Shown in pieces: positions 23,604-49,912 of a DNA stretch of 64,000 bases. The number at the start of each line of letters is the position of its first letter. Position 1 is the first letter of the stretch. Both the position numbers and the translations under genes were made by a program. The notes beneath the pieces are model-generated. The model saw only the letters and a program-made list of their open reading frames with translations. It did not search any database and was not told the DNA's origin. The DNA is from Chryseobacterium oryzae. GTDB taxonomy: Bacteria > Bacteroidota > Bacteroidia > Flavobacteriales > Weeksellaceae. The stretch is taken from the NCBI RefSeq assembly GCF_022811665.1, contig NZ_CP094529.1:1798001-1862000 (forward strand), read 5' to 3'.

Positions 23604-24338
23604 TTACGCAAAAACTCTCAGAAACTGATCTTTAAAACTTCCTGAAATTTCAATCTCTGTTTGATCGGAAAGTGTTGCGGTTCCGCTTTTGTGATACGAT
23701 TTCACAAAATTGGTATTGATGATATGAGAACGGTGAACCCTTACGAAAGGCTTTTCCAGCAAATCATCAAAATGCTTCAGAAAACGGCACACCATTTTCC
23801 TGGAACCGTCCGTAAGATAGACCTGCGTGAAATTTCCATCTGCCTGAAGTCTCATAATATCTTCCGTTTTCACGACATCAAAACCTTGGAGAGTAGGCAG
23901 AATCAGCTGTTGCTTTTCGGGCTTTAATTTTAGATTTTCGAGGAGAATTTTATTTCGGTTGAGCTCTTCTTTATTCTGAATGCTGTCTGCTGCTTTATTT
24001 ACCGCCAAAATCAGCTCCTGAATGTCTATCGGTTTTAAAATATAATAGCTCGCAGATTTATTTAAAGCCTGAAGAGAATACTGTGAAAATGCGGTAATGA
24101 AAATAGTTTCATAGGAGAAATCTTTGGTAGCTTCCAATACATCAAAAGCATTTCCGTAAGGCATTTCAACATCAAGAAAAACCAGTTGCGGCTGTTTTTG
24201 GGCAATCATGGGAACAGCTTCTTTAATATTTTCCGCTTCACCCAAAATTTCAATCTGCGGACAGTATTTTGTGACATAACTCCGGAGAACTTCTCTTGCA
24301 ATAAGTTCGTCATCTACGATTACGGCTTTTATTTTCAT
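23604..24338 (-). CDS. LytTR response regulator
   Basis: 244-residue cytoplasmic response regulator, partner of the histidine kinase encoded just upstream (42 bases between). The receiver domain (residues 1-120) has the acidic pair DD at 9-10, the phospho-acceptor Asp at 56 (LVFLDVEMP) and the switch Lys in YILKPID. A LytTR DNA-binding domain follows (about 140-242; IMRLQADGNFTQVYLTDG, FVRVHRSHIINTNFV). LytTR proteins bind pairs of short direct repeats about two helix turns apart. Such a pair lies in front of the kinase gene and another lies at 44832, so this protein is the best candidate to control those promoters. Confidence 0.93.
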   Translation of the reverse strand: MKIKAVIVDDELIAREVLRSYVTKYCPQIEILGEAENIKEAVPMIAQKQPQLVFLDVEMPYGNAFDVLEATKDFSYETIFITAFSQYSLQALNKSASYYILKPIDIQELILAVNKAADSIQNKEELNRNKILLENLKLKPEKQQLILPTLQGFDVVKTEDIMRLQADGNFTQVYLTDGSRKMVCRFLKHFDDLLEKPFVRVHRSHIINTNFVKSYHKSGTATLSDQTEIEISGSFKDQFLRVFA

Positions 24339-24380: not shown

Positions 24381-26162
24381 CTAGTTTGATAATTTATAAG
24401 TTATTTCAACAAAAACACCTTGTGAATCTATCTTATCCGTGATTTTGCATTCTATATTTTGTTTGTACAAATCATTCAACAGCGCAATTCTCTCCAAAGT
24501 ATTTTTCATTCCGCGGCCTTTTCGGGTTTTCTGATGTTCTGTTTTTTGCTTTTTGCTTTCTTCAATGCCGATTCCGTTGTCTTCAATGGTAATTTTCAGG
24601 CTTTCTGAAGATTTTTCGAATTTTAATTTTAAAAAACCTTTAGTTGTTCGGTATCTTAAGCCGTGCCAAACCGCATTTTCCATAAAAGGCTGCACCAGCA
24701 TTCCGGGAACTTTCAGGTTTTGAGTGTTTAAATTTTCATCAACTTCAATTTCGTAATCAAATTTGTCGGCGAAGCGGGTTTTTTCTAAAGCTAAGTAATT
24801 TTCCAGCAAATCTAATTCCTGCTGAAAAGGAATAAAATCATCCGCAGAATTTTCCATCACGCCACGCATCAGTTTTGAAAATTTGGTTAAATATTGGTTG
24901 GCTTCCAATTCATTATTCGTTGCTATAAAATGGTTTACGGAGTTTAAGCTGTTAAATATAAAATGCGGATTCATCTCACGGCGAAGCGATTGTAAAGCAA
25001 TTTTTTTGTTTTTAACCTGAACTTTTTTCAAGGTCCTGAAAATGAAAAAAATTAAGCCTATTAAAATAATTAAAGCTCCAATCAAGCTATAATTGAATAG
25101 ATTTTTTTTGCGGATAAGCTCGTCTTTTAATTTTTTTTCCTGCTCAAGCTGTTCAATTTTCTGTTCGGTATCTTCCAGAATTTTTTCATCTACCAGACTT
25201 TTGTCTTTAGAAACCAGGGCGGGTAATTTTCCCAGAAAATCTCGGTATAAACCTATGGATTCATCAATATTTTTAGAAACCTGATACAAGCTGTCGAGCT
25301 TTTTTACACTTTTCTGAGCTTCCAGAGTGTGACCTTTTTCAAGGGCAATTCCGTAAGATTTTTTCAATAAATTAATAGCTTCTTTAGGGTCATCTTTCTT
25401 GATGTAAATGTCTGCAAGCTCCTGAATTTGCTCTACCTGCTTTTTTGAATTTTCTTTTACGAAGTCTTCTTTCAAAACCTTTTTTTTGACTTCAATTGCT
25501 TTGTCAAAATTTTTATTTTCAACGTAAAGGTCTGCTAATTTCTGATTAATCGCTATTGCCTGCAAAGGGGCTTCCTCTTTAGAGATTTTATAGGCTGTAT
25601 TAAGGTTTTCTTCTGCCTTAGGAACATTATTCTGTTCAATATTTATGTCTGCCATCTGGCTGTATCCTGCAGCAAGATCTTCTTTATTATTCTCTTTTTC
25701 GCTGATGACAAGATTGTTCTTTATCGCCAAAGCTTTTTGCACGGTTGAAGGAGCAGAAACTCTGGATGCATCATTAGAATTCATCGTTTTCGCTGCTTTG
25801 GAATATCCTATTTTTGATGCAGTTTCGTAATTGGACACGGCATCTTTAAGCTTATTCTGGCTTTCCTGGGATTGGGCGAGCTTTCTCGTGGCTTTTTCTA
25901 AATTCTTTTTGTCATTGATCTTTTCGTAAAGGTTTTTCGACTTTAAAAAATACTCTTCACTTTTGGCAAAATTTCCGTTTTTCAGATAAGTTTCTGCAAT
26001 ATTATAGTAAGAATCGGCTTCTGCAGATTCGTCTTTAGAATCCACTGCTTTTTTGAGCTTTGAAGATTCTGCCACAATTTCTTTTGTGTTCGCACTCTGC
26101 GAATAGAGACAACCCGCAGAAAGCAAAAAAGAAAACAGCAAAAAAGTCCTGAACAAATTCAT
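24381..26162 (-). CDS. TPR-containing sensor histidine kinase (LytS/YehU type)
   Basis: 593-residue membrane sensor. A signal peptide (MNLFRTFLLFSFLLSAGCLYSQ) precedes an extracytoplasmic tetratricopeptide region (about 30-300), a short coiled coil, one membrane segment (about 356-376), and a His_kinase domain. The phospho-acceptor is H400 in MNPHFIFNSLNSVNHF, the N box is NAVWHGLRY near 496, and the G boxes are EDNGIGIEES and GRGMKNTLERI. It forms a two-gene operon with the LytTR regulator. Its -7 box TATCTTTG lies only four bases from the ATG, so the transcript appears leaderless. A pair of direct repeats sits 40-70 bases upstream of the start. Confidence 0.92.
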   Translation of the reverse strand: MNLFRTFLLFSFLLSAGCLYSQSANTKEIVAESSKLKKAVDSKDESAEADSYYNIAETYLKNGNFAKSEEYFLKSKNLYEKINDKKNLEKATRKLAQSQESQNKLKDAVSNYETASKIGYSKAAKTMNSNDASRVSAPSTVQKALAIKNNLVISEKENNKEDLAAGYSQMADINIEQNNVPKAEENLNTAYKISKEEAPLQAIAINQKLADLYVENKNFDKAIEVKKKVLKEDFVKENSKKQVEQIQELADIYIKKDDPKEAINLLKKSYGIALEKGHTLEAQKSVKKLDSLYQVSKNIDESIGLYRDFLGKLPALVSKDKSLVDEKILEDTEQKIEQLEQEKKLKDELIRKKNLFNYSLIGALIILIGLIFFIFRTLKKVQVKNKKIALQSLRREMNPHFIFNSLNSVNHFIATNNELEANQYLTKFSKLMRGVMENSADDFIPFQQELDLLENYLALEKTRFADKFDYEIEVDENLNTQNLKVPGMLVQPFMENAVWHGLRYRTTKGFLKLKFEKSSESLKITIEDNGIGIEESKKQKTEHQKTRKGRGMKNTLERIALLNDLYKQNIECKITDKIDSQGVFVEITYKLSN

Positions 26163-26201: not shown

Positions 26202-26232
26202 TTCACCAAGTGAAAAGTTTGCTTCACCAAGT
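26202..26232. promoter_or_regulatory. Direct-repeat operator A (candidate LytTR site)
   Basis: TTCACCAAGT occurs at 26202-26211 and, identically, at 26223-26232, an exact 21-bp period, that is two helix turns. It lies between the divergent kinase and SIMPL-like genes. A weaker third copy, GCCACTAAGT, lies at 26256-26265. The same pair is found at 44832-44862. Confidence 0.65.
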
Positions 26233-26260: not shown

Positions 26261-26268
26261 TAAGTTTG
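26261..26268 (+). promoter_or_regulatory. -7 box (TAAGTTTG) of the SIMPL-like gene
   Basis: Exact TAnnTTTG match 28 bases from the edge of operator A and 25 bases before the ATG. A second match, TACTTTTG at 26244-26251, is closer to the operator and is the less likely choice by comparison with the other two promoters of the set. Confidence 0.5.
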
Positions 26269-26293: not shown

Positions 26294-27259
26294 ATGAAAA
26301 AGCTTATTCTATCATCTTTAGTTTCATTGTCGTCATTTGTTTTTGGGCAAGTTTCAGGAAATATTAATTATCAAAACCAACAGAACAGCCAATACCAGTT
26401 TAGATATCCTGATTATAACATCAATATAGGTTCTCCGTCGTCAAATGATATTTTTGTTAATATTAAAGGTTTGGCAAACGTAAAAGCAGATCAATACGTT
26501 GCTATTTTCAGTTTAACACAGGTTGCAGAAACCGCAGAAGAGGTTAACCATTTGATTGATAAGCGGATTAATTCTTCAATTGCTCAGATTAAACTTTTAA
26601 AAGGGATAGACACTTTTACAGACATGATATCATTTGTTCCTGTATACAATTATGAGGTAGAAAATAAAATATTTAGTAAAAAAACGTACAATGAAGTTCC
26701 TAAAGGATTTGAATTAAAGAAGAATCTCCATATAAAATTTTCGGATCCTACAAAGCTTAACGAATTAATTATGATACTTTCTAAAAATGAAATTTATGAT
26801 TTGGTAAGAGTAGATTACTTTGCAAATAACCTTGAAGCAGTAAAAAAAGAATTAATGAATAAAGCAAAACTTTCTTTGCAGGAAAAAATTAAAAATTATG
26901 AATTGATGATTGGCGAAACTTTTACAAATTCTGCTAAAAGCTTGAGCGATGGCTATAAGATTGTTCTTCCTGTAGAAATGTACAAATCTTATGAGGCTTA
27001 CAACAGTTCGTCTTTTTCATTTACCAAATCGGCTAATGTGAATCAGGTAAATAAATCTACTACAATGTTTTATCAGCCAATAATGGATAAGGAATTTGAT
27101 TTTGTGATTAATCCTACCATTTTAGAACCAGTAATTCAGATTATGTACGAAGTGAAAATCTTGATAACTAAAGAGAAAAAACAAGAATCTAAAGACAATA
27201 AAAATTATATTCTGATTACGCCTAACGGAGAAATGAAAGATTTGAATATTGTTAAATAG
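26294..27259 (+). CDS. Secreted SIMPL-like (DUF541) domain protein
   Basis: 321 residues with a signal peptide (MKKLILSSLVSLSSFVFGQ). The region from about 45 to 290 has the pattern of the SIMPL/DUF541 family: an opening strand NDIFVNIKGLANVKADQYVA, a helix ETAEEVNHLIDKRI, and a repeated strand-helix layout ending in VIQIMYEVKILITK. SIMPL proteins are periplasmic or surface proteins of unsettled role. It is divergent from the kinase-regulator operon and shares its operator region. The same operator is found in front of the DUF4139-vWA operon. A terminator follows the stop. Confidence 0.72.
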   Translation: MKKLILSSLVSLSSFVFGQVSGNINYQNQQNSQYQFRYPDYNINIGSPSSNDIFVNIKGLANVKADQYVAIFSLTQVAETAEEVNHLIDKRINSSIAQIKLLKGIDTFTDMISFVPVYNYEVENKIFSKKTYNEVPKGFELKKNLHIKFSDPTKLNELIMILSKNEIYDLVRVDYFANNLEAVKKELMNKAKLSLQEKIKNYELMIGETFTNSAKSLSDGYKIVLPVEMYKSYEAYNSSSFSFTKSANVNQVNKSTTMFYQPIMDKEFDFVINPTILEPVIQIMYEVKILITKEKKQESKDNKNYILITPNGEMKDLNIVK

Positions 27260-27328: not shown

Positions 27329-28351
27329 TTATAAACCTGCCACCAAATCTTTCCACTCCTGAAGTTCGGGAACGCCAGGTTTTCTTTTTCCGAAAAGCTG
27401 AACGATAAATTCTCCATCTTTATTAAAGACCTCAACTGCAGTAACTTCTCCATCTTCAGTAGGTTTTTTCACAATCCACGCTTCTGCAATTTTGGTAACG
27501 TCCAGATGAAGATTAAAATCCGGATCCATCACGTTAAACCATTGCTGATGCCATAGAGTTTTTTTCACATTCCCTGTATGAATCTGTATAATTCCTCTGT
27601 TTCCTACAAAAACCATGATAGGAAACTGTTTTTCTGAAGCATCTTCAAGCAGATTAACCACTTTAGAAGGCTCTATTTTTATGGCAAAACCTTCAGGAGC
27701 CAGTCTTAAAGCCTGTGTTCTGTTTACTCCGAATTTTCTGGTCATCATAAAGAAATCATGGGTATCTTTAAGGTTTGTCCAAGCATTTTGGAATCCTTCT
27801 TTATCAATTTCAGAATCGGCTTTTTCAGGAGCTTTTGATGCAACAGATTCAAATTCTGGCTTAATATTTTGATCTTCTGCTGAAAACTGTTCTACCAAAG
27901 CCTGAAAAGCTTCTTCATTGCTATCTTTTGTAAGGTAAATTTTATGCAACGCCAAACCATCTTTCCCGAAAAACTGAATGCTCTTTTTATCTCCTTCTAC
28001 AACTGCAACTGCAAATTTCCAGTGATTAAGGAAAATTCTAAGATCAATATCCTCACCCACAAAAAGCTGAGCATGAGGGCTGCTGAAATCACCATTCTGG
28101 TAAATTCCTTTTCTTTCGTGCACACATTCATCATTTCTCGTGAGTGCCATTACTTTTCCTAATTTTTCTACTTCTGTTAAGATATTGGCAAATTCCGGCT
28201 TCAATACCGTAACTCCCTCACCTACATTGGTTAACAGTAATTCTGCTTCGCTTACCCCAAGCTGATCTGCTGCATTTCTTATTCTTACATGTGGGTTTTC
28301 TGCTTTTAGAGCTTCCCATTTTTCTTTCAGTTCGTTTACTAATGTGCTCAT
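27329..28351 (-). CDS. hmuS: Hemin-degrading / hemin transport factor
   Basis: Cytoplasmic heme-handling protein of the HmuS/ChuS/HemS family, which binds imported heme and either carries or degrades it. The 340-residue length and the two homologous halves (about 20-165 and 190-335) are typical. Each half carries the family turn: MALTRNDECVHERKGIYQNG in the first and QLFGKRKPGVPELQEW at the end of the second. It is the last gene of the heme operon, six bases after the methyltransferase gene, and ends at a strong terminator. Heme-cleaving activity is not certain from sequence; a carrier role is equally compatible. Confidence 0.9.
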   Translation of the reverse strand: MSTLVNELKEKWEALKAENPHVRIRNAADQLGVSEAELLLTNVGEGVTVLKPEFANILTEVEKLGKVMALTRNDECVHERKGIYQNGDFSSPHAQLFVGEDIDLRIFLNHWKFAVAVVEGDKKSIQFFGKDGLALHKIYLTKDSNEEAFQALVEQFSAEDQNIKPEFESVASKAPEKADSEIDKEGFQNAWTNLKDTHDFFMMTRKFGVNRTQALRLAPEGFAIKIEPSKVVNLLEDASEKQFPIMVFVGNRGIIQIHTGNVKKTLWHQQWFNVMDPDFNLHLDVTKIAEAWIVKKPTEDGEVTAVEVFNKDGEFIVQLFGKRKPGVPELQEWKDLVAGL

Positions 28352-28357
28352 TTTTAC

Positions 28358-29008
28358 TTATTTATTTATGGTTAAAACTGTGTATTTTCTTTTGATAAAT
28401 TCTTCTCCGGTTTTGCTTTTTATTTCTTCTTCTTTTTCGGAGATTTTCATTCGTTTGAAATGGCTTTCAGAAATCAACTGTTCCATTTCATCATTATTGT
28501 AAAGCTTAAAATTATAGGACGTAAAAGGTAATTTCTCCATGAAATTTCTTTGCCCAAATGTGAGAACAAATGTTCCGTTATCTTTAAGGATTCTGTAAAT
28601 TCCGTTTAAAAAATTCACTGGGTTTTCCCAGAAGTAAACAGTGTTTACGGTAAAAATTTTGTCGAAAGTTTTATCCTCAAACGGAAGTATTTCTCCTTCA
28701 TATAAAACAAATTCAGCCTTATCTTGAAAGTTTGTATTGTTTTTTTCTGCTTCAACATGCATTGTTTCAGAAATATCAATACCTATATACCTTAGATTTT
28801 CTGCTCTCGCCAAAAGGTTTTCTACGTGTCTGCCATTGCCATGTCCGATTTCCAGAATATGGTTGCCATCTTCAATCGACAAAGCTTTTATGCTTTCTAA
28901 CGTCATCCCGAGATTGGTTTCATTCATCATTTCTCCAATCTCAATACCTTTCTCACCTTGCGGATTTGCAAGATTCTGTGCCAATATTTTCAGTTCGTTC
29001 TGTTCCAT
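28358..29008 (-). CDS. Class I SAM-dependent methyltransferase in the heme operon
   Basis: 216 residues. SAM-binding motif I is HILEIGHGNGRHVENLL near residue 50, the acidic motif II is GIDISETM, and the motif-IV-like FDKIFTVNTVYFWENP is near 120. This is the methyltransferase-11/25 type with a small-molecule substrate. The start follows the hmuV stop directly, with no gap, and hmuS begins six bases after its stop, so it is embedded in the heme operon. Its substrate is unknown. A role in heme breakdown or in modifying a heme product is an inference from position only; it could also be a passenger. Confidence 0.85.
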   Translation of the reverse strand: MEQNELKILAQNLANPQGEKGIEIGEMMNETNLGMTLESIKALSIEDGNHILEIGHGNGRHVENLLARAENLRYIGIDISETMHVEAEKNNTNFQDKAEFVLYEGEILPFEDKTFDKIFTVNTVYFWENPVNFLNGIYRILKDNGTFVLTFGQRNFMEKLPFTSYNFKLYNNDEMEQLISESHFKRMKISEKEEEIKSKTGEEFIKRKYTVLTINK

Positions 29009-29782
29009 TTATCCAAAAACAATCATTGGGTTATCATTTACGGGATGTTTGCAAATTGTACAAGGAAAATGATATGCTGCCGAAATATTTTCTTCGGTAA
29101 AAACTTCCTTTGGTGTTCCGTATTTTGCAACTTTCCCTCCTTTCATCAGCAAAATTTTATCTGCAAACTGGGCTGCAAGATTCAGATCATGAAGCACCAC
29201 TATGGCAGAATTCGCTTTTTGAGTAAATTTTTTAATGATCTCTAATGCTCTGTACTGATGCTTAATGTCTAAATTATTAAGAGGTTCATCCAAAAAAACC
29301 AATTTGTGAGCGATTTCATTTTTCATCTGTGCCATGACTCTCGAAATATGTACCCGTTGCTTTTCGCCTCCCGACAAAGAATTATAATCTCTCTCTTTTA
29401 GATGAATAATTTCCGTTTCCAGCATCAGTTCATTTACTGCTTCTACATCATTTTTGTGCGGTTGAGCATCAAAATAAGGATAGCGTCCCATCATTACCAC
29501 ATCTTTTACCTGTAAAGGAATTTCGGCAGAGTTATGCTGGGAGAATTTAGACTTATGTTTCGAAATTTCTCTCAAATCCCAATCGGCAATCGGCTTATTT
29601 TTGAATATAATTTTGTCTTTTTCTGCTTTCATTTCATTGGCAAGAATGCTGAGAAGACTAGACTTCCCTGCTCCGTTTGGACCTACTATGGCTAAAAATT
29701 CTCCATATTCTACCGAGACGTTTACCGCATTGAGAATATGAAAATCTTTATGCTTATAATTAATATGATCTGCCTTAATCAT
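29009..29782 (-). CDS. hmuV: Heme ABC transporter ATP-binding protein
   Basis: ATPase of the heme importer, on the cytoplasmic face. The 257 residues contain Walker A GPNGAGKSSLL near residue 36, the ABC signature LSGGEKQRVHISR near 138, Walker B KLVFLDEPLNNLD and the H-loop VVLHDLNLAAQFA. The sequence fits the HmuV/FecE group of iron-siderophore and heme ATPases. Its ATG overlaps the stop of hmuU by one base (TAATG), indicating translational coupling. Confidence 0.94.
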   Translation of the reverse strand: MIKADHINYKHKDFHILNAVNVSVEYGEFLAIVGPNGAGKSSLLSILANEMKAEKDKIIFKNKPIADWDLREISKHKSKFSQHNSAEIPLQVKDVVMMGRYPYFDAQPHKNDVEAVNELMLETEIIHLKERDYNSLSGGEKQRVHISRVMAQMKNEIAHKLVFLDEPLNNLDIKHQYRALEIIKKFTQKANSAIVVLHDLNLAAQFADKILLMKGGKVAKYGTPKEVFTEENISAAYHFPCTICKHPVNDNPMIVFG

Positions 29783-30822
29783 TACAGTGTTTTTCTGAAT
29801 TTAATTAAAATAGCGATGAAAACAGGACCTCCCATTAATGCCGTTAAAATTCCTATTGGCAATTCTGAAGGGGCAACTATACTTCTGCTTACTGTATCTG
29901 CCGACAAAAGCAATATACTTCCCAAAACTGCCGATAACGGAAGTATGAAAACATAATTAGATTTAAACAAAAGCCTAAGAATATAAGGGGCAATTAAACC
30001 TACAAAGCCAATAGTTCCTGAAAATGCTACACAAGTTCCTATCATGAGTGCTGTGGTAAGAACTATTTGCTTTTTCAGTCTTTCTACATTAATACCCAAA
30101 TGTTCTGCATCTTTTTCGCCCAACATCATTGCATTCAAAGCCTTTCCTTTCGGTAATAAAATGAGATAGGAAACTATAAGAACAACAGTAAGGATGAGAT
30201 TTTTCGTCCATGTTGCTGCCGCAAGACTTCCCATATTCCAAAAAGTAAGATCTCTCAGCTGCTCATCTTTGGCGATATAAATTAAGAATCCAGTAATAGA
30301 GAATCCTATTGCGGTAATGGCAACCCCACTTAGTAACATCATTACAACATTGGTTTTTCCTTCGCTAGTAGAAATCCTGTATACCAGAAGCATTGCTAAT
30401 AATGCTCCCACAAATGCAGAAATTCCTACTAGAGAAAACTGAACTGCTTCCGGCAAATATTCTTTAAAATAACTGCCTAAAACAATTGCTATTGCTGCAA
30501 GTAATGTTGCTCCGGAGGTTAACCCTATTAAATCTCCGGTTGCCAAAGGATTTTTGAACATTCCCTGAAGACTTGTTCCAGATACTGCAAGAAGGCTCCC
30601 CACCAAAACAGCCATCACAATTCTGGCACTTCTCACTTCCCAAATTACATATCGGTCGCTTAAAGAGACATCTGTACTACCCGCCAATATTTTTTGCAGG
30701 ATGATGAATGGTGAATTTCCTCCGAAATCGTAAACACCAATATTAAGAGAGCCTATTGCAAGTAGAACCAGCAATAGAAAACTCAAAAAGAGATAAAAAT
30801 ATAATTTACTTTGTGCTTTCAA
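29782..30822 (-). CDS. hmuU: Heme ABC transporter permease (FecCD family)
   Basis: 346-residue integral membrane protein with about ten helices, BtuC/FecCD fold. Family signatures visible are SLAVSGTSLQGMFKNPLATGDLIG-type (AVSGTSLQGMFKNPLA near residue 82), LLSGVAITAIGFSI, FWNMGSLAAATW and GFVGLIAPYILRLLF. It moves heme from the periplasmic binding protein into the cell. The start overlaps the end of the hmuT gene by 17 bases, and the stop overlaps hmuV. Confidence 0.94.
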   Translation of the reverse strand: MKAQSKLYFYLFLSFLLLVLLAIGSLNIGVYDFGGNSPFIILQKILAGSTDVSLSDRYVIWEVRSARIVMAVLVGSLLAVSGTSLQGMFKNPLATGDLIGLTSGATLLAAIAIVLGSYFKEYLPEAVQFSLVGISAFVGALLAMLLVYRISTSEGKTNVVMMLLSGVAITAIGFSITGFLIYIAKDEQLRDLTFWNMGSLAAATWTKNLILTVVLIVSYLILLPKGKALNAMMLGEKDAEHLGINVERLKKQIVLTTALMIGTCVAFSGTIGFVGLIAPYILRLLFKSNYVFILPLSAVLGSILLLSADTVSRSIVAPSELPIGILTALMGGPVFIAILIKFRKTL

Positions 30823-31684
30823 CTAAAAGTTTATTTAATGCTACCGCTGCTTCACCTAATCTTGGTCCGAATGACGAAACCAAACCACCGTCCATTGCAA
30901 TAATTTTCTTATTCTTACCTGCATTTGTCTGCAAAACTCCCGGCATTTTCAGCACTCCTTCATTTCCGCCTGCACCTTGCAAACCAGAAGAAAAGAAGAA
31001 TAATACATCCGGATTGGCTTTTACAACAGCTTCAGGTGTAAGAGGTTTAAAATCTTCAAAATCTTTTACTGCATTTTCTCCGCCTGCAATTTCTATTAAT
31101 GAGGCCATAGGAGTATTTTTACCAGAAACCATCATCATATTTCCTCTTGCATAAATAAAGAGCACTTTAGGCTTTTTTGCAATGGGCTGAATCTGTTTTA
31201 AATCTGCATCTATTTTATCATTAAGTTTTTGATAATCTGTATTTCCTAATGCTTTTGCTACTTCTTCAATCAGCTTTTTGGTTCCGTCTACCGTATATTC
31301 CTGCTTAAAAAGTTCTGTTTTAATTCCGGAAGATTTCATTTTACCTAAAAGTTCAGGATTAATGTCTTTATCTGAAGCCAAAATTAAAGTTGGGTTTACT
31401 GCCATAATTGGCTCAATCGTCATAGATCTTACGTGTCCTAAATCTTTGGAAGTAGATTTCAGCGATTCGGGATAGGTACTGGTAACATCGTTTCCTACAA
31501 TTTCATTTTCGTGTCCCAGAGCACTAACAATTTCTGTAATTCCGCCACTTAGAGAAACAATTTTCTGATTAGATTTCGGAGTTTCCGAAGCAATTTCTGT
31601 TTTATTTTCTGCCTGATTCTGATTTTCTTTTTTACAAGAATAAACTACAGCCAATAAAGATGCTGCAAGAATTATTTTTTTCAT
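30806..31684 (-). CDS. hmuT: Periplasmic heme-binding lipoprotein
   Basis: 292-residue substrate-binding protein of the heme ABC importer. The signal peptide ends in the lipobox VYSC at about residue 17, so it is a lipoprotein. The two-lobe fold is shown by QKIVSLSGGITEIVSALGHE at the start, SMTIEPIMAVNPTLILASDK in the middle and NPDVLFFFSSGLQGAGG in the second lobe. This is the BtuF/FhuD/HmuT type. It starts 13 bases after the HmuY gene. Confidence 0.92.
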   Translation of the reverse strand: MKKIILAASLLAVVYSCKKENQNQAENKTEIASETPKSNQKIVSLSGGITEIVSALGHENEIVGNDVTSTYPESLKSTSKDLGHVRSMTIEPIMAVNPTLILASDKDINPELLGKMKSSGIKTELFKQEYTVDGTKKLIEEVAKALGNTDYQKLNDKIDADLKQIQPIAKKPKVLFIYARGNMMMVSGKNTPMASLIEIAGGENAVKDFEDFKPLTPEAVVKANPDVLFFFSSGLQGAGGNEGVLKMPGVLQTNAGKNKKIIAMDGGLVSSFGPRLGEAAVALNKLLVESTK

Positions 31685-31697
31685 TTTTACTATATTT

Positions 31698-32783
31698 TTA
31701 TAAAGGTTGATATTCGAATTGAGGATAACCGCGTTCTCCCAAAGTATTGGTTATTCGTGTAAATTTTAATTTAAAATAAAATCCGTCTGCATCTTTTATA
31801 ACATAAAAACGATCTCCATACACTTCCAGACCATTGGCTCCTACAGGGTTTCTCCAGTTTCCGCCAATAACTCTCTGGTCGTTATAAACCAGTTTTGAAG
31901 GATCTATATTTTCTGCCTTAAAATTATTATACGCTTCTGTTCCCGATGTCTGTGCTGCTACTTTAACTTCATAAGCTCCCACTCCACCAACATTATTATT
32001 TAAAACAAAATCTGCATAAACATAACTTCCTGCATTGAAAATTATATTGGTAAATACTGTGAAACACAAATCCCACTGTTTTTTCTCAGGCTGAATAAAT
32101 ACTTCTTTATCCTTTGTAAGACTTACAAAATTGTAATTGTATGAAGGATTTTTTTCTACCAGCAATTCTTTATGAGTTGTATCATTCAGTTTGGCATATT
32201 TTATTTTGTACCCCGAAGAATTTCTTACAATCTGAACTTTCATCCAACCCCGGGAATCTCCACCAGTAGCTACAGAACCAACTGCAACGCTTCCAGTGTA
32301 AATTTCTTTACCCATATTTACAAGATAAACAGCATTTTGTCCTTCGTTTTCTTTTATACCTTCTATTGCTGTATAGCCCGTTGGGAAATTTCCTTTTACA
32401 TCATCTATATAATGTTCGTTATCCGGATTGAAACTTCCTACCTGAACCAGTTGCATTAAAGCCGAAACATCCGACTGAGTAACAAGATCAATATTATTGG
32501 CACCTTCAATTTTAGCTGCCGCCATCATTATGGATGAGTTGAGGATTACTTTAAAATCGTTTCCGGTATATAAAGCAAGATCCCAATCGGTACGTTTGGT
32601 AAGAATTTCTTTTCCTTTGCTTAAATCGAACCATATTTGGTTAGGCTGCGTTGCTCCTCCAACATGCGGACTTACAACAGAACCCTGAACCGGTGCAACA
32701 GGCACAGGATCTTCATTATCGTTTATGCAGGAATGAGAAATAAAGGACGTTCCCAAAATGAACGCAAACAGTATTTTTTTCAT
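31698..32783 (-). CDS. hmuY: HmuY family heme-binding lipoprotein
   Basis: 361-residue surface lipoprotein (signal with lipobox SHSC near residue 19) of the HmuY family. In Porphyromonas such proteins take heme from host proteins and hand it to the TonB receptor. The family pattern is seen twice: IWFDLSKGKEILTKRTDWDL and, in the second half, FIQPEKKQWDLCFTVFTNII. The final block, NTLGERGYPQFEYQPL, is also typical. It lies directly downstream of the receptor gene (58 bases) and upstream of hmuT. Whether the heme ligands are the two His of the classical protein cannot be told here. Confidence 0.9.
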   Translation of the reverse strand: MKKILFAFILGTSFISHSCINDNEDPVPVAPVQGSVVSPHVGGATQPNQIWFDLSKGKEILTKRTDWDLALYTGNDFKVILNSSIMMAAAKIEGANNIDLVTQSDVSALMQLVQVGSFNPDNEHYIDDVKGNFPTGYTAIEGIKENEGQNAVYLVNMGKEIYTGSVAVGSVATGGDSRGWMKVQIVRNSSGYKIKYAKLNDTTHKELLVEKNPSYNYNFVSLTKDKEVFIQPEKKQWDLCFTVFTNIIFNAGSYVYADFVLNNNVGGVGAYEVKVAAQTSGTEAYNNFKAENIDPSKLVYNDQRVIGGNWRNPVGANGLEVYGDRFYVIKDADGFYFKLKFTRITNTLGERGYPQFEYQPL

Positions 32784-32841
32784 ATCTAAATTTTATTTTT
32801 CTTGTTGATGTATAATCTTACAGATTTCTATGCTTCAAAAT

Positions 32842-34977
32842 TTAAAACTGATAATTGAGTCTCGCGAAATAGCTTCTTCCATAGAACAAATTTTGTGATC
32901 CTGTTCCGGAATTGTGTGCACCACCGGAAATCACCGTATTTCTTACATCAGAAACATCAAAAATGTTTTTAACGCCAAGACTTACCTCTAAATGATTATT
33001 AAAAAATGGCTGACTCACCGTAAAATTCATCATATTAAATGCCCCTATTTCTCCCAAAACATACTCTGGCGTTTGACCAGGATTTTCTAATGCTTTCTGC
33101 GTAAACTGTTTTTGCACACCTGTATATTTATAGTAGAGCGCGAAAAGCGTTTTCACTTTTGGAAGGGTATAATTTGCAGAGAAATTGGCTTCTGTATAAA
33201 AGTTGTAATTTTCTGGTGAATTCATATTGCCCGTTGTAAGACTTTGCGAAATACCCATCACTGAAACCTCACCATTGAATGAAAGCTGATCTTTTCTCAC
33301 ACTGAAACCTCCTCCAAAAAGCAAAGAATTATAATTATTGACATTCAGAAATGTGTATTTTAGCGGACTGTTGCTTATAATAACACTTTCAATTCTGCCT
33401 TTCACATCCAGATACATTGCCGAAATACTGATATTGGTTCTCCATGCATGGGTTTTAGAATTGCTGAAATCATAAAACAAACCTAAAGAATAGCCCGTTT
33501 CAGGCTTAAGATTTTCATTTCCTCTGATGTCGTGGTTGTTATCTACTACAAAAGTGTAGAGTTCATCGTAGACAGGAAATCTGTTTGAAGATCCAAAAAC
33601 AGCCCTAAAATCCGATTTTTCCGATGGATTAAATCTTGCCGTAAATGAATAATTATATTGAGAATCGAATTTATCGCTCAGTGCTAATCTCACACCGGGA
33701 CGAAAGGAAATTTGGTTGTTTACTTTCCATTCAGCAGAAAGAAAATTGGCATAATTAAAAATAGATCTGTTGATATTAATTCCGTTATTGTTAAATGCAA
33801 ATGTTTCAGATCCGGCAAAACCACTGGTACGATCTAATTCGTAACCCAACTGAAAATCTATTTTTTCGTTATCCAGAAAATTACTGAACATTCCTCTTGA
33901 ATAGAATACCTTAGATTCATAGAATAATTTTTTATCTTCTTCAGACAACGTTTTTCTGTTGGGAATATCGTAAACAAAGTCCTGAGATTTTCGTTCCTGA
34001 CTCTGATATGAAAAATCTCCCAAATAATTAATTCTAGAACCTATTTTTGTCTGAATATTAAACTGATGAATCCATCTTGTAGTAAAATAATTCCTATCGT
34101 TTGCAATATAGGTACGGTTACCATTTCCTAAAGGTAAATCTTCAATTACGCGGTTATAAAAGTTAATATTTTCGTTGAGAAAATTCGATTTTAAAAAGAA
34201 TGAAGTATTATTTTTAGAATATCTTACGGCTGCATTAGCTGTAATCTGGTCTTTTGGCAACCAATTATAACCTCTTTTTTTATCATTGTTATCGCTAAAA
34301 TATTTGTAACCTTCTAGTTCGCCCTTATATCCCTGAAAATCGTTACGGTTGACATCTGCTGTAAGAGACCAATTTTCTGAGATCCTGAAACCCAGATTAA
34401 GGTTCTGAATATGGCGACCGTTTCCTTTCTTATACCAATCATAATCTTTACCAACGGTTTCCTCCTGCAATGAAACCAAAGCAGAAACTTTCTTAGAATA
34501 ATTTTTCTTAGTAATTATATTAATAACTCCCGCAACAGCATTATTACCGTACTCTACACCCATCGCCCCTTTTACGATTTCAATTCTTTCGATGTTGTTT
34601 ACGTTAATTTTACTTAAGTCAACCTGATTTCCCATACCCTGATCGCTTACTACAGGAATATTGTCGATTAAAACTTTAGTGTAAGCTCCTCCAAGTCCCA
34701 TGATTTTAGCATTAGAATCTCCACTCCCACTATTAGGTTCAATAAGGATATTAAGATTTTGGCTTAAAACTTCAGATGCGGTTGTTGCAGCCATATTTTT
34801 AATCTGTTGCGCATCAATCACTTCAACTTTATAAATTGATTTATTAATAGACTGCTGCTTATACTGACCGGTGATAACCACCTCATCTATTTTTGAGAAC
34901 TGTAAAGAGTCTTTATTCTGAGCTTTTATCCAAAAAACAGCAGACAATAAACCAACAGACAATACCTTCCTATTCAT
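32842..34977 (-). CDS. TonB-dependent heme/hemoglobin receptor
   Basis: 711-residue outer-membrane receptor with a signal peptide (ends near AQN), a plug domain (about 30-150, with IDEVVITGQYKQQSINKSIY, VLIDNIPVV, and GVEYGNNAVAGVINIITKK) and a 22-strand barrel with the C-terminal aromatic end YFARLNYQF. It is the first gene of the heme operon and gives the substrate gate for HmuYTUV. The promoter at 35003 shares a dyad with the divergent HmuY-like gene. The heme specificity is inferred from the operon, since receptor sequence alone does not distinguish heme from siderophores reliably. Confidence 0.92.
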   Translation of the reverse strand: MNRKVLSVGLLSAVFWIKAQNKDSLQFSKIDEVVITGQYKQQSINKSIYKVEVIDAQQIKNMAATTASEVLSQNLNILIEPNSGSGDSNAKIMGLGGAYTKVLIDNIPVVSDQGMGNQVDLSKINVNNIERIEIVKGAMGVEYGNNAVAGVINIITKKNYSKKVSALVSLQEETVGKDYDWYKKGNGRHIQNLNLGFRISENWSLTADVNRNDFQGYKGELEGYKYFSDNNDKKRGYNWLPKDQITANAAVRYSKNNTSFFLKSNFLNENINFYNRVIEDLPLGNGNRTYIANDRNYFTTRWIHQFNIQTKIGSRINYLGDFSYQSQERKSQDFVYDIPNRKTLSEEDKKLFYESKVFYSRGMFSNFLDNEKIDFQLGYELDRTSGFAGSETFAFNNNGININRSIFNYANFLSAEWKVNNQISFRPGVRLALSDKFDSQYNYSFTARFNPSEKSDFRAVFGSSNRFPVYDELYTFVVDNNHDIRGNENLKPETGYSLGLFYDFSNSKTHAWRTNISISAMYLDVKGRIESVIISNSPLKYTFLNVNNYNSLLFGGGFSVRKDQLSFNGEVSVMGISQSLTTGNMNSPENYNFYTEANFSANYTLPKVKTLFALYYKYTGVQKQFTQKALENPGQTPEYVLGEIGAFNMMNFTVSQPFFNNHLEVSLGVKNIFDVSDVRNTVISGGAHNSGTGSQNLFYGRSYFARLNYQF

Positions 34978-41923: not shown

Positions 41924-43117
41924 TCAGAAACTGTAACCATTTTTCTTTGCAATTTCTTCAATAGATTTTTCTATTGCTTTTCCCAAATCATCCTGATCCG
42001 AATTACCCCGTTTTTTAACTTCAGAATTAATAAAATCTTGTCGTTTTTTAGCTAAAACTTCAATTTCTCGTTGAATTTTTTCTCTATCGGCTGATTTTTG
42101 AGAAATAATATTTGTAATTTCTGCTATTGTTTTTCCTTTCAGTTCCGCAGGTAAATCTTCTTCTTTGAGAGTTGAAATATAAGACTGATCTTTTTCTACC
42201 TTATCAACCAAATCCCAATGATCGTTTTTGTAAGCATTTTTCTTAGATTTGCTTACTGTTCTTTCTACAGCATTAGAGGCCGATAAAGATTTTGCATTCG
42301 AATCCTGCAACATCTGTTTATTTTTCATCTCATAGCCTTTGTTTCCGTAAGAAATATAAGTATCATTAAGCAAACCGTTGCACTCATAAATTTTCTCATC
42401 AAAAGGAGTTTTAATAAAGATGACTTTCTCGTTACTGTCGATATTGAAATATTTTCCTTCACCCAAAACAGAACCATTTTGCCATAATGCCTTAATTCCC
42501 TCTTCCTTTCTGCCACAGAAAATCGTATTGGTATAGATATTTTTATTTTTTGCCTGATTAACAGCATCTTTATAATTAATTCTACCTTGGTTAAACGGTT
42601 CATTTCCGGCTATATAAATGAGTTTCATGCTTTTTTCATTGGCATCCCAATTCAAATTTTCAGATGCATCTCGAATTACCGCTCCACAATATTCGTTTCC
42701 CCCATTGGTTTGTAAGGCGAAGAGTTTTTCCGAAATCAAATCTAAATCCTGCGTAAGCGGAGTCACCTGTCTTATGTAATTTTCGTCCTGCAATCCATCG
42801 TTTCCATATTCATACAGTGCAATTTCCACTTCGGGAGCTTTTCCGTTATACTTTAAAGTTGTTAAAGTGTTTACAATATTCCAAAGTCGGGATTTTGCCT
42901 GTTCGATAAGTCCGTCCATACTATTGGAAGTATCCAGAAGTAAAGCAACCTGAATTTTATTTTCCTTATAAACTGAATGCTTTGGATGAAATGAAACATT
43001 TTTTTGAATTATTATTGAGTCTTCTATTTTTCCGCTGTTGAAATTTTTAAAAATTTCTCCTGTCCCGATAAAAACAACGGAAGTTGCAGCTAATGCTATA
43101 AATTTTATTGTGTTCAT
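41924..43117 (-). CDS. Secreted von Willebrand factor A domain protein
   Basis: 397 residues from the ATG at 43117, giving a hydrophobic signal/anchor (MNTIKFIALAATSVVFIG); the upstream in-frame start at 43174 is rejected because it would bury the signal. The vWA domain (about 55-240) has the metal-ion-dependent adhesion motif DTSNS (VALLLDTSNSMDGLIEQ) and typical strands. The C-terminal part (about 300-395) is a charged helical region with KREKIQREIEVLAKKRQ-like pattern. It lies downstream of the DUF4139 gene, 59 bases away, in one operon. It is extracytoplasmic; partner and ligand are unknown. Confidence 0.85.
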   Translation of the reverse strand: MNTIKFIALAATSVVFIGTGEIFKNFNSGKIEDSIIIQKNVSFHPKHSVYKENKIQVALLLDTSNSMDGLIEQAKSRLWNIVNTLTTLKYNGKAPEVEIALYEYGNDGLQDENYIRQVTPLTQDLDLISEKLFALQTNGGNEYCGAVIRDASENLNWDANEKSMKLIYIAGNEPFNQGRINYKDAVNQAKNKNIYTNTIFCGRKEEGIKALWQNGSVLGEGKYFNIDSNEKVIFIKTPFDEKIYECNGLLNDTYISYGNKGYEMKNKQMLQDSNAKSLSASNAVERTVSKSKKNAYKNDHWDLVDKVEKDQSYISTLKEEDLPAELKGKTIAEITNIISQKSADREKIQREIEVLAKKRQDFINSEVKKRGNSDQDDLGKAIEKSIEEIAKKNGYSF

Positions 43118-43176
43118 AATGATTCTTTTTATTAATATTTTTGATGAATTTTCAATTGAAACCAATATCTGCACTC

Positions 43177-44772
43177 CTATCGACTGTAATATTGAATCTG
43201 CATTTCTTTCGGATATTTTATCTCATAAGAAAAACTGATTTTTTCGGTAGTTCCGCTGTTTATTTTTCTATTCCAAAGAATGCTTCCTGTTTTATCATCA
43301 TACAACCCATCTCCGAGATTTAAAGTTTTAACGGTAATTTTCTGATTTTCACTTAGCGGAATTTGGTCTAAAATTTCGAGTTCAATATTTTCTTTAGTAT
43401 TGTTTCTTACAGATATTTCGTAAGCTTCGGTTTCAAACTTATTGGAGCTGAAAGATTTTTGAGCAGTCTTGTCCTCCAATTTATTTCGTTTTAGCACAAT
43501 TCTTTCATCAACACCGAGAGAAATAGGAAATTCATCCTTTACATAATTACTTGTAATGTTGGTTTTCCCGATATAATTGTCTTCAAAATAAATATTTGCT
43601 TCACCGGAAATAAGGTTTAAATTCTGCCAGTTTTTCACAAATGCCATTAAGAATACCTGATTGTTTATCTTCGGAACTGTGTGATATTTATATGTAGATT
43701 CCACATTTTTTTTATCTAAAATGACATATTGTTCTTTTTCCTGACTCAGAATGGTTTGGCTGTAATTCAATTCATACAAAATATTCATCTGACTGTCTGA
43801 AACGGTTGCCACAGGAATCTCACTAGGTGTTGCAACTTCAGCTCTCATCTGATAAGAATTGGATATATCGGCTGCCATTTTCTTAGTATATCCCAACTTT
43901 ACGTCTTCATTATTATATGCTCTATATTCTGCAACATACAATGGAGATAAAATAGGCCGGTTTTGGTTGTAAGAAAGTCTGTAAGTAGAAACAAAAAGCT
44001 TAATATTACTCCAATCCTGACCGGTTTTTTGGTAAATTTTACCTTTATAGACAATTTCTAACGGTTTTTTAGTAGATAAAGCTCGCAAATCATACGATGG
44101 AACCCAACCTGCATTAGAAACAATATAACTTAGTCCGAGATTCAGATTCATTTCATTTTCTGCAAGAATCTCAAGAATCAATTCTTTTCTGTTGGTATTT
44201 TTATGAGTCTGTTCTTCAGAAAACTGATTGTTGATTTTGGTAATACTTTCATCCAAAACAGATTTTTTTTCGTTAAGTTCAAAAACCAGATTATCTATTT
44301 CCAGCATTCTTTTTCTGTAAAATTCAGTCAGTTTTATAAGCTGTTCCTGAGGCGTAGATTTATCATTGGTAGAAACTTTAAGATTATCTTGAATGATGTT
44401 TTGTTCACCAGTAAGATTTTTAATCTGAATAGCAAGCAAATTTACCTGTCTTTGCAATTTTTTTCTTTCATCGTCGAGTTTTTTTTCGCTCTCTGTAAGT
44501 TCATCGTTTTTAAGATAGTTGCTTTGCGGTGTAATGGATAGAAGTGTTGTATTTTTTTCCAGATTTATTTTGTAGGTATTTTCGTCCAGATCATTAGGAA
44601 GATTAAAAATAGTAACAGTATTTCTACCTTTTTTAAGATTTACATTGGTGGTTCCAAAAACTTTGGCACCTTGCAGAAATACAGTTGCCTGTTTTACCTC
44701 AATTTCTTTTTTAATTTCCTGAGATTTCAAAAATAAAACCGCAAAAACGAGTATGAGAGAATAGATTTTCAT
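43177..44772 (-). CDS. DUF4139 / MuiA-like coiled-coil secreted protein
   Basis: 531 residues, exported by a signal peptide (MKIYSLILVFAVLFLKSQ). The N-terminal DUF4140-type domain (about 20-75; VKQATVFLQGAKVFG) is followed by a long coiled coil (about 85-195) and the C-terminal DUF4139 beta domain (about 205-530; LSYIVSNAGWVPSYDLRALS, then YEIKYPKEMQIQ). This is the architecture of the mucoidy-inhibitor-A family, of unknown biochemical role. It is the first gene of a two-gene operon with the vWA protein. An operator matching the one ahead of the kinase and SIMPL-like genes lies 60-90 bases upstream. Confidence 0.85.
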   Translation of the reverse strand: MKIYSLILVFAVLFLKSQEIKKEIEVKQATVFLQGAKVFGTTNVNLKKGRNTVTIFNLPNDLDENTYKINLEKNTTLLSITPQSNYLKNDELTESEKKLDDERKKLQRQVNLLAIQIKNLTGEQNIIQDNLKVSTNDKSTPQEQLIKLTEFYRKRMLEIDNLVFELNEKKSVLDESITKINNQFSEEQTHKNTNRKELILEILAENEMNLNLGLSYIVSNAGWVPSYDLRALSTKKPLEIVYKGKIYQKTGQDWSNIKLFVSTYRLSYNQNRPILSPLYVAEYRAYNNEDVKLGYTKKMAADISNSYQMRAEVATPSEIPVATVSDSQMNILYELNYSQTILSQEKEQYVILDKKNVESTYKYHTVPKINNQVFLMAFVKNWQNLNLISGEANIYFEDNYIGKTNITSNYVKDEFPISLGVDERIVLKRNKLEDKTAQKSFSSNKFETEAYEISVRNNTKENIELEILDQIPLSENQKITVKTLNLGDGLYDDKTGSILWNRKINSGTTEKISFSYEIKYPKEMQIQYYSR

Positions 44773-44796
44773 TGTTTATTATTTAAAGTTCTAGAG

Positions 44797-44804
44797 TAAA
44801 ATTA
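44797..44804 (-). promoter_or_regulatory. -7-like box (TAATTTTA) of the DUF4139-vWA operon
   Basis: Seven of eight consensus positions on the minus strand, 27 bases from operator B. The spacing equals that of the other two promoters of the candidate regulon. Confidence 0.4.
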
Positions 44805-44831
44805 CCCTGAAATAACAATGAATCTCTTCAG

Positions 44832-44862
44832 ACTTGGTAAACTGCCATTTTCACTTGGTGAA
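44832..44862. promoter_or_regulatory. Direct-repeat operator B (candidate LytTR site)
   Basis: On the plus strand ACTTGGTAAA (44832-44841) and ACTTGGTGAA (44853-44862) are 21 bp apart, matching the reverse complement of operator A (TTCACCAAGT pair). The TTTTCACTTGGTGAA core is shared with the 26202-26232 site. Seen in the direction of the DUF4139 gene, the distance to the ATG (59 bases) is nearly the same as for the SIMPL-like gene (61). Confidence 0.65.
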
Positions 44863-45059
44863 ATTTAAACTAACCTGAATTCTTATAACTGTTTTAAAAA
44901 TATTCTCAAAAAATGAATACAATTTTTCTTAAAATGTTTTTACAAGATGATTTTTATCTATTTCAATTCTCAAAAAAAATTGAAACTAGTTGAGAAAAAA
45001 TGCTCTTAAATGAAAAAAACTTCACGACCTTTACATGCTGTAACCATTTTATAATTTTT

Positions 45060-45932
45060 ATGAAAAATATTCTTGTTGCGATTTTCGTTGTAGGGTTTTC
45101 CGTCTTAAATGCACAAAACTTTAAGCCATATCAGTTTTACAATAAAAAAGGAAAAGCAGTGAAAGCAGAGAAAATGATTAAAAATCTGGCAGATCACGAT
45201 GTCGTTTTCTTTGGTGAGTTTCATAATAATTCAATCGTACATTGGCTTCAGCTGAAAGTTACCCAAGCTATGTACGAAAAAAAGAACAAAGAAATTACGC
45301 TGGGTGCTGAAATGTTCGAAAGGGATAATCAACCACAGATTAACCAATATTTAGCCGGAAAAATTGATGCGAAAAACCTGAAAGATTCTGTTCGTTTATG
45401 GAATAATTACAACACCGATTACCAACCTCTTTTGAATTTTGCCAAAGATAAAAACCTGAATTTCATTGCCACCAATGTACCCAGAAAATATGCTTCCCAA
45501 ACAGCCAAAGAAGGTTTAGAATCTCTCAATAAACTGTCCCAAAAAGAAAAATCTTATATCGCAGAATTGCCCATAGAAGTAAGTTTAGAAACTCCGGGGT
45601 ATCCCGAAATGAAAAAAATGATGGGAGACCATGCAGAAGGAACCAAAGTAATGAATTTTATTTCTGCACAAGCTATAAAAGATGCTACAATGGCAGAATC
45701 TATCATGCGAAATTTACAGCCGGGTAAAACTTTCATTCACTTTAACGGTAATTTTCACACTAAGGAATTTGGCGGTATTTACTGGTATTTAAAAAAGAAA
45801 AATCCCAACCTTAAAATAGCGGTTATCTCAGTTTTCGAAACGGAAAACCCAGAATTAAAGATACCTGAAAAAGATTACTTCCCAACAGATTATAATTTAG
45901 TTATCCCAAGTGATATGACAAAGACTTACTAA
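45060..45932 (+). CDS. ChaN-like heme-binding/iron-regulated protein
   Basis: 290 residues from the ATG at 45060, which begins a clean signal peptide (MKNILVAIFVVGFSVLNAQ); the in-frame start at 45000 adds an unlikely leader and is rejected. The mature part has the ChaN/EreA-like fold with the conserved VVFFGEFHNNSIVHWLQL and LGAEMFERDNQPQINQYL, and a late FIHFNGNFHTKEFGG. ChaN-type proteins bind heme or cleave small substrates at the envelope. The conserved Glu/His residues of the motif are present. It precedes a secreted deformylase-like gene by 68 bases. Confidence 0.82.
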   Translation: MKNILVAIFVVGFSVLNAQNFKPYQFYNKKGKAVKAEKMIKNLADHDVVFFGEFHNNSIVHWLQLKVTQAMYEKKNKEITLGAEMFERDNQPQINQYLAGKIDAKNLKDSVRLWNNYNTDYQPLLNFAKDKNLNFIATNVPRKYASQTAKEGLESLNKLSQKEKSYIAELPIEVSLETPGYPEMKKMMGDHAEGTKVMNFISAQAIKDATMAESIMRNLQPGKTFIHFNGNFHTKEFGGIYWYLKKKNPNLKIAVISVFETENPELKIPEKDYFPTDYNLVIPSDMTKTY

Positions 45933-49348: not shown

Positions 49349-49912
49349 ATGAAAAACGAACAGCTATTTCCACTTATCCAAAAGGCAATAGAAAAAGATC
49401 AAAAGGCACAAACGCAGCTCATTAATATTTTTTGGGTAGATGTTTTTTCTTTTGTGATGAAGAAAGTACAGGACGAAAATGATGCAGACGAAATTACTGT
49501 AAATGTATTTTCTAAAGTCTTGTCTAAACTGGATATGTTTGATGCTCATTTTCAATTCAAAACCTGGATATTAACGATTGCCCAAAACACTATTATTGAT
49601 TTCTGGAGAAGAAAATCCAGAGAAAACCAAAATACAACGGAAAATCTGGAAGAAGTAAAAAATCAGTTTGCCAAATCCCCTGAAGAACTGATGATATCGG
49701 AAGAGGAACAGAAAAAAATCATTAAAACTATAGAATCTTTAGACTCAAATTATCGGGATATTATCCGTTTGAGATTTTTTGAAGAAAAAAGTATTAAAGA
49801 AATCGCCGAAGAATTGGGAATTTCTGTAGCCAATACCAAAGTCCGTGTAATGAGAGCCAAAAAAGTACTCGCAGAACTACTGAAAAATAACGGTTTGGGA
49901 GATCACAGCTGA
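49349..49912 (+). CDS. RNA polymerase sigma-70 factor, ECF subfamily
   Basis: 187-residue ECF sigma factor. Region 2 (about residues 20-90) shows ENDADEITVNVFSKVLSKL and KTWILTIAQNTIIDFWRR. Region 4 (about 120-180) shows SLDSNYRDIIRLRFFEEKSI and the helix-turn-helix KEIAEELGISVANTKVRVMR. No anti-sigma gene follows; the next gene is convergent, six bases away. A -7-like box (TAGGTTTA) lies three bases before the ATG. The target genes are unknown. Confidence 0.9.
   Translation: MKNEQLFPLIQKAIEKDQKAQTQLINIFWVDVFSFVMKKVQDENDADEITVNVFSKVLSKLDMFDAHFQFKTWILTIAQNTIIDFWRRKSRENQNTTENLEEVKNQFAKSPEELMISEEEQKKIIKTIESLDSNYRDIIRLRFFEEKSIKEIAEELGISVANTKVRVMRAKKVLAELLKNNGLGDHS

Follow-up and report, generated by a model that had tools for sequence, protein, structure and literature searches.

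Proteins of the SIMPL/DUF541 type, which include YggE and BP26, and proteins with a DUF4139 domain are both recorded in Pfam as being of unknown function. In Pseudomonas aeruginosa the gene muiA is reported to be under SbrI, and both SbrI and MuiA to rise after osmotic shock and D-cycloserine (PMC10418997), and among LytTR-type two-component systems the sensor BtsS is described as a 7-transmembrane receptor (PMC10653868). Here we describe a kinase/LytTR regulator pair in Chryseobacterium oryzae, contained in a stretch of 64,000 nucleotides (the window; contig NZ_CP094529.1), together with two copies of a tandem repeat with a 21-bp period. One copy precedes a SIMPL gene next to the kinase and the other precedes a distant DUF4139-vWA operon, and the two are very probably operator sites of this one two-component system, regulating the SIMPL, DUF4139 (MuiA) and vWA genes. 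The features concerned, in window coordinates, are:

23604..24338, minus strand: LytTR response regulator (receiver and LytTR DNA-binding domains; PF00072 5.7e-16, PF04397 1.7e-11), the predicted binder of both sites
24381..26162, minus strand: sensor histidine kinase (PF06580 6.4e-22, TPR_12 4.5e-19, HATPase_c 1.9e-4)
26202..26232, plus strand: tandem LytTR-type site of 21-bp period before the SIMPL gene, within the divergent kinase/SIMPL gap (sequence, genome scan)
26261..26268, plus strand: -7-like box TAAGTTTG, starting 28 bases past the site (sequence; spacing same in relatives)
26294..27259, plus strand: SIMPL/DUF541 protein, signal peptide by eye (PF04402 2.4e-9)
41924..43117, minus strand: vWA protein, second gene of the DUF4139-vWA operon (PF00092 7.8e-8, alignment)
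43177..44772, minus strand: DUF4140-DUF4139 protein of the MuiA family, signal peptide by eye (PF13598 9e-48, PF13600 1e-14, TIGR02231)
44797..44804, minus strand: -7-like box TAATTTTA, starting 27 bases past the site (sequence; spacing same in relatives)
44832..44862, minus strand: tandem LytTR-type site of 21-bp period before the DUF4139-vWA operon (sequence, genome scan)

The site before the operon consists of ACTTGGTAAA (44832-44841) and ACTTGGTGAA (44853-44862), repeated with a period of 21 bp. Read on the minus strand this pair is TTCACCAAGTGAAAA-N6-TTTACCAAGT; its twin at 26202-26232 (plus strand) is TTCACCAAGTGAAAA-N6-TTCACCAAGT, and the two share GAAAA behind the first repeat. In full, the letters are TTCACCAAGTGAAAATGGCAGTTTACCAAGT at 44832-44862 (minus strand) and TTCACCAAGTGAAAAGTTTGCTTCACCAAGT at 26202-26232 (plus strand), which agree over a 15-base first block and most of the second block. 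An earlier note on this DNA had described the one pair as the reverse complement of the other with the same period, had placed a -7-like box 27 bases from the operon site and had called the distances to the two ATG codons nearly equal. All of this agrees with the sequence: TAATTTTA is found at 27 bases (its SIMPL counterpart at 28), and the site-to-ATG distances are 59 bases for the DUF4139 gene and 61 for the SIMPL gene. The strict pattern (gap 10-12) matched the whole 3.24 Mb genome twice, at these two places, and reversed-pattern controls did not match at all; when up to 3 mismatches were allowed there were four matches (two extra and weaker), against one for the reversed-pattern control.

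The place of the site upstream of the DUF4139 gene is fixed. It lies 59-66 bases from the start, mostly 59-60, with up to 2 mismatches, in all 30 orthologue loci examined (own genome included; start projected from the alignment in two). A total of 71 named loci encode relatives of the DUF4139 protein, 55 of them from Chryseobacterium; among the 60 that are at least 60% identical, which overlap the genus genomes described below, a site at up to 3 mismatches lies within 140 bases in 58, the exceptions being L201, with none in that distance, and L205, with a site farther upstream. None of the 11 distant named loci (~29-34% identity) has a site. DUF4139 paralogues (26-30% identical) were sampled from those listed, and the upstream loci of 20 of them, scanned in full on both strands at up to 3 mismatches, gave none either. 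This second DUF4139 group (~25-33% identical; L087-L106, including G000:C1:11264-12820) is common in the genus. In one genome (G072) a rhodanese gene sits between the site and DUF4139, and on two metagenome-assembled contigs (L204, L205) a DUF4139 gene of 60% identity has a site, with no kinase within the stretch examined.

Beyond the half-sites, whose conservation is there by construction as the contexts were chosen by motif, 133 distinct site contexts share further features: after the first half-site come (G/C)AAA and then variable bases, and a TAATTTTA-like box starts 27 bases past the site, its eight columns showing 74-88% conservation. The exact form TAnnTTTG is found within 50 bases in 22 of the 133 (17 of them at 27-28), compared with 2.4% of random 50-mers. 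The palindromic left half-site (TTCAC-CAA-GTGAA) was considered as a second, kinase-directed operator and was dropped, since its GAA is not commoner beside the kinase (39/74 kinase-adjacent sites versus 105/136 elsewhere).

Both domains of the regulator, PF00072 and PF04397, pass their cut-offs. The kinase has a signal peptide and one membrane helix (~residues 355-377), both read by eye, with a TPR region lying between the two, and its H-box (His_kinase) is NPHFIFNSLN; its HATPase_c match (1.9e-4) falls below that model's own cut-off. The SIMPL protein belongs to its family by PF04402 (38.2 bits, cut-off 25.2). The earlier note had spoken of three exported proteins, SIMPL-like, MuiA-like and vWA; the MuiA-like one is the DUF4139 protein itself, which scores 249 bits against NCBIfam TIGR02231 (mucoidy inhibitor MuiA family; cut-off 112.6). 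The vWA protein matches PF00092 with 33.2 bits (cut-off 23.8), a score computed on a longer open reading frame starting at 43174, and its DxSxS motif is DTSNS (DTSSS in L197, a named Frigoriflavimonas locus), which we take to be of the MIDAS (metal ion-dependent adhesion site) type. No NCBIfam model matched it. By eye, its gene probably starts at ATG 43117 and not at GTG 43174, and its N-terminus is hydrophobic. Signal peptides were likewise read by eye from the translations of the kinase, SIMPL and DUF4139 proteins and are clear in all three; it is these peptides and the family names that suggest the label 'envelope' and a presumed envelope role. A sequence search of solved structures returned nothing for the DUF4139 protein and nothing for the vWA protein. 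The predicted model of the former (mean predicted local distance difference test score, pLDDT, 70.5; predicted template modelling score, pTM, 0.51) gave template modelling scores of at most 0.30 among the 50 of 466 matches listed in a PDB fold search, and that of the latter (mean pLDDT 52.4, pTM 0.36) was set aside.

Co-occurrence was assessed in 148 genomes of the genus, counting a motif match at up to 2 mismatches and a kinase orthologue at E up to 1e-150, with counts made partly by hand. The motif matched in 141 genomes and the kinase was present in 139. Every kinase-bearing genome (139/139) had at least one match and 134 had at least two; in the five with a single match (G087, G029, G089, G109, G143) the match adjoins the kinase gene. 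Seven of the nine kinase-less genomes had no match, while G051 had one 2-mismatch match and G063, which is 75% complete, had three. The corresponding Fisher p values (1e-10 for any match, 2e-9 for at least two) are a guide only, as the genomes share ancestry. By a count made by hand, DUF4139 orthologues (at least 73% identity, best piece) occurred in 71 of the 148 genomes, being present in 71/139 kinase-bearing versus 0/9 kinase-less genomes (Fisher p 0.003, again with shared ancestry). In an order-wide draw, 25 genus genomes had the vWA gene, and each of these also had the kinase or the regulator; of the 11 genus genomes listed as lacking vWA, 5 are kinase-less and 6 kinase-bearing. DUF4139 matches were reported in pieces with an in-frame TGA in G038 and G118; G113 has its kinase in two pieces, and for G127 only the C-terminal part of the kinase is among the matches listed.

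A regulator orthologue (E up to 1e-80) was present in 47 of 197 family genomes, from 5 of 33 genera. Of the 147 family genomes that belong to other genera, 4 of the 5 regulator-bearing ones had a site at 0-1 mismatch, versus 1 of 142 others. G176 has the layout of the genus, with the kinase leftward, a site before SIMPL and a second site before DUF4139 followed by vWA; G181 and G211 show the same contexts minus DUF4139, and G150 has the site before DUF4139, with the kinase/regulator pair on another contig. In the order as a whole, vWA (E up to 1e-30) was found in 53 of 346 genomes and 18 of 104 genera. Twenty loci were taken from the 27 vWA matches outside the family, and in all 20 the vWA gene adjoins a kinase/regulator pair (31-54% and 34-67% identical). 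Ten have a site when up to 3 mismatches are allowed, the 14 matches at this setting all lying inside the cluster, and six more have a diverged tandem repeat, for example TTYACTCA, at exactly 21 bp, giving a recognisable repeat in 16/20. An earlier distant pattern, unsuited to the Chryseobacterium form, matched 5 of 22 loci, where shuffles predict 0.05; the corrected pattern matched 17/22 at up to 1 mismatch and 9/22 exactly. Exact matches to the degenerate repeat numbered 10 in 17.7 kb of kinase-to-vWA sequence (22 loci) and 3 in the 750 kb made up of the remaining sequence and the opposite strand, and a scan of periods 16-30 gave 10 matches at 21, one at 23 and none elsewhere. The LytTR domain of the regulator differs in the same genomes as have the diverged repeat (HRSHIIN/HKSHIIN versus HKSYLVN and similar). 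A correlation between regulator and vWA divergence (Mantel r 0.96) would be expected from shared ancestry alone and was not taken as evidence. Judged from these loci, the core of kinase and vWA predates the genus.

In most relatives the genes stand together. The order was taken from 18 relatives (20 stretches) and the named loci: regulator and kinase leftward, in many cases backed by a lipocalin gene, next a site and a variable gene, then a site and a second, 224-amino-acid SIMPL gene, often followed by a site with DUF4139 and then vWA, with some loci lacking one or more of these. The first target slot, after the kinase-proximal site, is filled by SIMPL, by an amidohydrolase that has a SnoaL domain or by two proteins (~191 and 383 amino acids) with no Pfam or NCBIfam match; this interchange is seen in L035, L043, L045, L048, L049, L050, L051 and L053 and in named loci. 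The second SIMPL gene, usual in relatives, appears absent here, as tblastn found no match to it in the only other SIMPL gene of this genome, C1:25479 (at 1e-5), and none in the window (at 1e-3). Eight solved-structure matches of the second SIMPL protein, to designed or other helical-repeat proteins, were judged spurious.

In the 70 genomes where DUF4139 and the kinase share a contig, the median distance between them is 4.4 kb; that of the window, 18.8 kb, exceeds all others, with 9.6 kb in second place. Since relatives are usually contiguous and this distance is extreme, the split in C. oryzae is derived: on the gene orders compared, the gap is a split ancestral cluster and not a newly recruited target. 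At least two further genomes have split clusters, with sites 209 kb apart on one contig in G053 and, by the coordinates of a single contig, ~2.0 Mb apart in G142. In both, a separated SIMPL-vWA operon retains an exact site, and no DUF4139 match is among the matches listed. Of the sequence evidence for control in trans, such keeping of a site away from the regulator gene is the strongest. A single inversion was examined as the cause here; the order DAO-F5-MFS-AraC-LipA, which adjoins vWA in relatives, is kept inverted in the window, but an extracytoplasmic function (ECF)-sigma gene at 49349 makes one inversion insufficient, and we leave the cause as a rearrangement in which the DUF4139-vWA operon moved and its orientation was reversed. 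That gene (49349-49912) follows lipoyl synthase near vWA in relatives and lies here beyond the other side of the DUF4139 operon. The block holding the operon is flanked by a haem uptake set (27329-34977: HemS/ChuX, an ABC transporter with FecCD and binding protein, HmuY and a TonB receptor) and a homologue of ChaN-family haem-binding proteins (45000-45932), and haem genes around the separated operon suggest a larger rearrangement here.

What would be expected of a single regulon is thus found: a shared operator stands before the targets, is kept in orthologues and co-occurs with the regulator. The proposal of the earlier note that one kinase/LytTR pair probably controls the SIMPL, DUF4139 and vWA genes gains support from the co-occurrence of motif and kinase, the fixed site and the contiguous clusters. 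Its suggested test by co-occurrence came out in its favour, with the motif in 139/139 kinase-bearing genomes and DUF4139 orthologues confined to genomes that have the kinase; the gene set varies between species. Several observations weigh against the proposal. The motif is not fully specific, as reversed-pattern controls at up to 2 mismatches matched in ~59 of the 148 genus genomes (at least twice in 10), and outside the genus 2-mismatch matches were about as common as controls and were left uncounted. About half of the kinase-bearing genus genomes are without a DUF4139 orthologue, vWA is missing in 6 of 31 such genomes of the order-wide draw, and the SIMPL gene of the window's type occurs in only some clusters, so that there is no fixed five-gene set. 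G154, 83% complete, has a 1-mismatch site and no regulator; G224 has regulator, kinase and vWA, yet only a diverged repeat; and four of the 20 distant loci (L232, L233, L234, L242) have no repeat at the thresholds used. Shared ancestry, moreover, runs through all the co-occurrence counts.

Chance, or a mobile repeat that came to lie before both genes, might be read from the close agreement of the two copies described above; we give it practically no weight, as base composition predicts 6.5e-5 exact pairs per genome, the position before DUF4139 is conserved in 30/30 orthologues, and the 6-base spacer differs between copies and between species. The sites could also belong to another regulator, such as a different LytTR protein, with the neighbouring kinase pair a bystander. 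These genomes do hold further response-regulator-like stretches and hence many candidates, but the motif co-occurs with the neighbouring pair, the kinase-proximal sites lie ~15-60 bp from the kinase start (74 sites) and the site sequence changes where the regulator diverges, which makes such a bystander very improbable. With the same regulator at the same sites, control might instead be repression, or of both signs, with the targets released on a signal. The sequence by itself does not give the sign; the site is nonetheless upstream, ending 27-28 bases before the -7-like box in a place typical of activators, and AgrA direct repeats are likewise reported upstream, with a centre near -60 for those closest to the promoter (PMC4227749), and repression is accordingly a minor prospect.

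That the regulon serves surface polysaccharide, adhesion or nutrient sensing rather than envelope stress is a serious though not the favoured possibility: MuiA is reported to have its name from inhibiting mucoidy, with an action on alginate production, in Pseudomonas (PMC10418997), and in some species the first target slot is taken by the amidohydrolase or the two unassigned proteins. The response of SbrI and MuiA to osmotic shock and D-cycloserine in the same report speaks for envelope stress. Since the targets appear to be exported and muiA of Pseudomonas is raised by these treatments, an envelope-stress or surface-maintenance response would be the most likely role.

The sequences show that the two sites are alike, that their place is fixed, that they co-occur with the regulator, that the genes were clustered ancestrally and that the site was kept once they had separated. 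Direct binding, activation in preference to repression, the envelope role and the signal are inferred, and the following scheme is proposed on that footing. The exported TPR region of the kinase (24381-26162) would receive the signal, and the kinase would phosphorylate the adjoining LytTR regulator (23604-24338). A regulator dimer could then place one LytTR domain on each TTYACCAAGT half-site, the half-sites being two helical turns apart, and would sit just upstream of the -33 region; with the TAATTTTA box taken as the -7 element, the site spans roughly -39 to -69. Promoters of Bacteroidetes have a -7 consensus of their own. The regulator would contact RNA polymerase and activate promoters with such a box 27-28 bases downstream, activation being favoured because the site is upstream of the promoter. 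The products would be exported proteins, namely one or two SIMPL proteins, the MuiA-family DUF4139 protein and the vWA protein. The ancestor had one cluster, and here a rearrangement put the DUF4139-vWA operon 18.6 kb away in opposite orientation with its site kept. A more speculative idea, on balance unlikely to hold in full, is that of a dedicated envelope surveillance of the Flavobacteriales, in which the TPR region might sense a periplasmic SIMPL/MuiA-family/vWA assembly or its substrate and the regulator might restore supply, a feedback loop that outlasts break-up of the cluster.

For the target combination of SIMPL, MuiA and vWA under LytTR control, no paper was found among those listed by searches of the open-licence PMC literature, most papers in subscription journals being outside that scope. 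The conserved operator would join the three families to one sensor and give a testable handle on all of them; it also provides an operator map for one two-component system across Chryseobacterium and relatives, and clusters already split by nature offer a ready means of testing control in trans.

Compared with described systems, the regulator is of the LytTR two-component type, a known class, and is neither BtsR nor LytR by curated cut-offs, scoring 101 bits (cut-off 246) and 87.9 bits (cut-off 375) against the respective NCBIfam equivalogs. BtsSR, YpdAB and AgrCA resemble the present pair in having a His_kinase-type kinase (PF06580) and a receiver-LytTR regulator, and AgrA is also reported to have direct repeats upstream of its promoter (PMC4227749). 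In contrast to the 7-transmembrane sensor of BtsS, the kinase here has a TPR region and, by eye, one membrane helix; a multi-spanning LytS-type membrane sensor domain was absent from the 16 Pfam matches obtained, which sets it apart from LytS/BtsS-type kinases. YggE/BP26-type SIMPL proteins share with ours a SIMPL domain above the Pfam cut-off, and here the domain is linked by site and neighbourhood to a dedicated kinase and regulator and to DUF4139 and vWA genes. SbrI-muiA of P. aeruginosa is alike in placing a MuiA gene under a dedicated regulator, although control there is by an ECF sigma/anti-sigma pair, as opposed to a LytTR two-component system, and the part of the account available to us mentions no SIMPL or vWA partner, the P. 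aeruginosa MuiA being likened to ours by family (PMC10418997). All three LytTR-type systems differ from the one described here in its predicted targets, which are the SIMPL, MuiA and vWA proteins.

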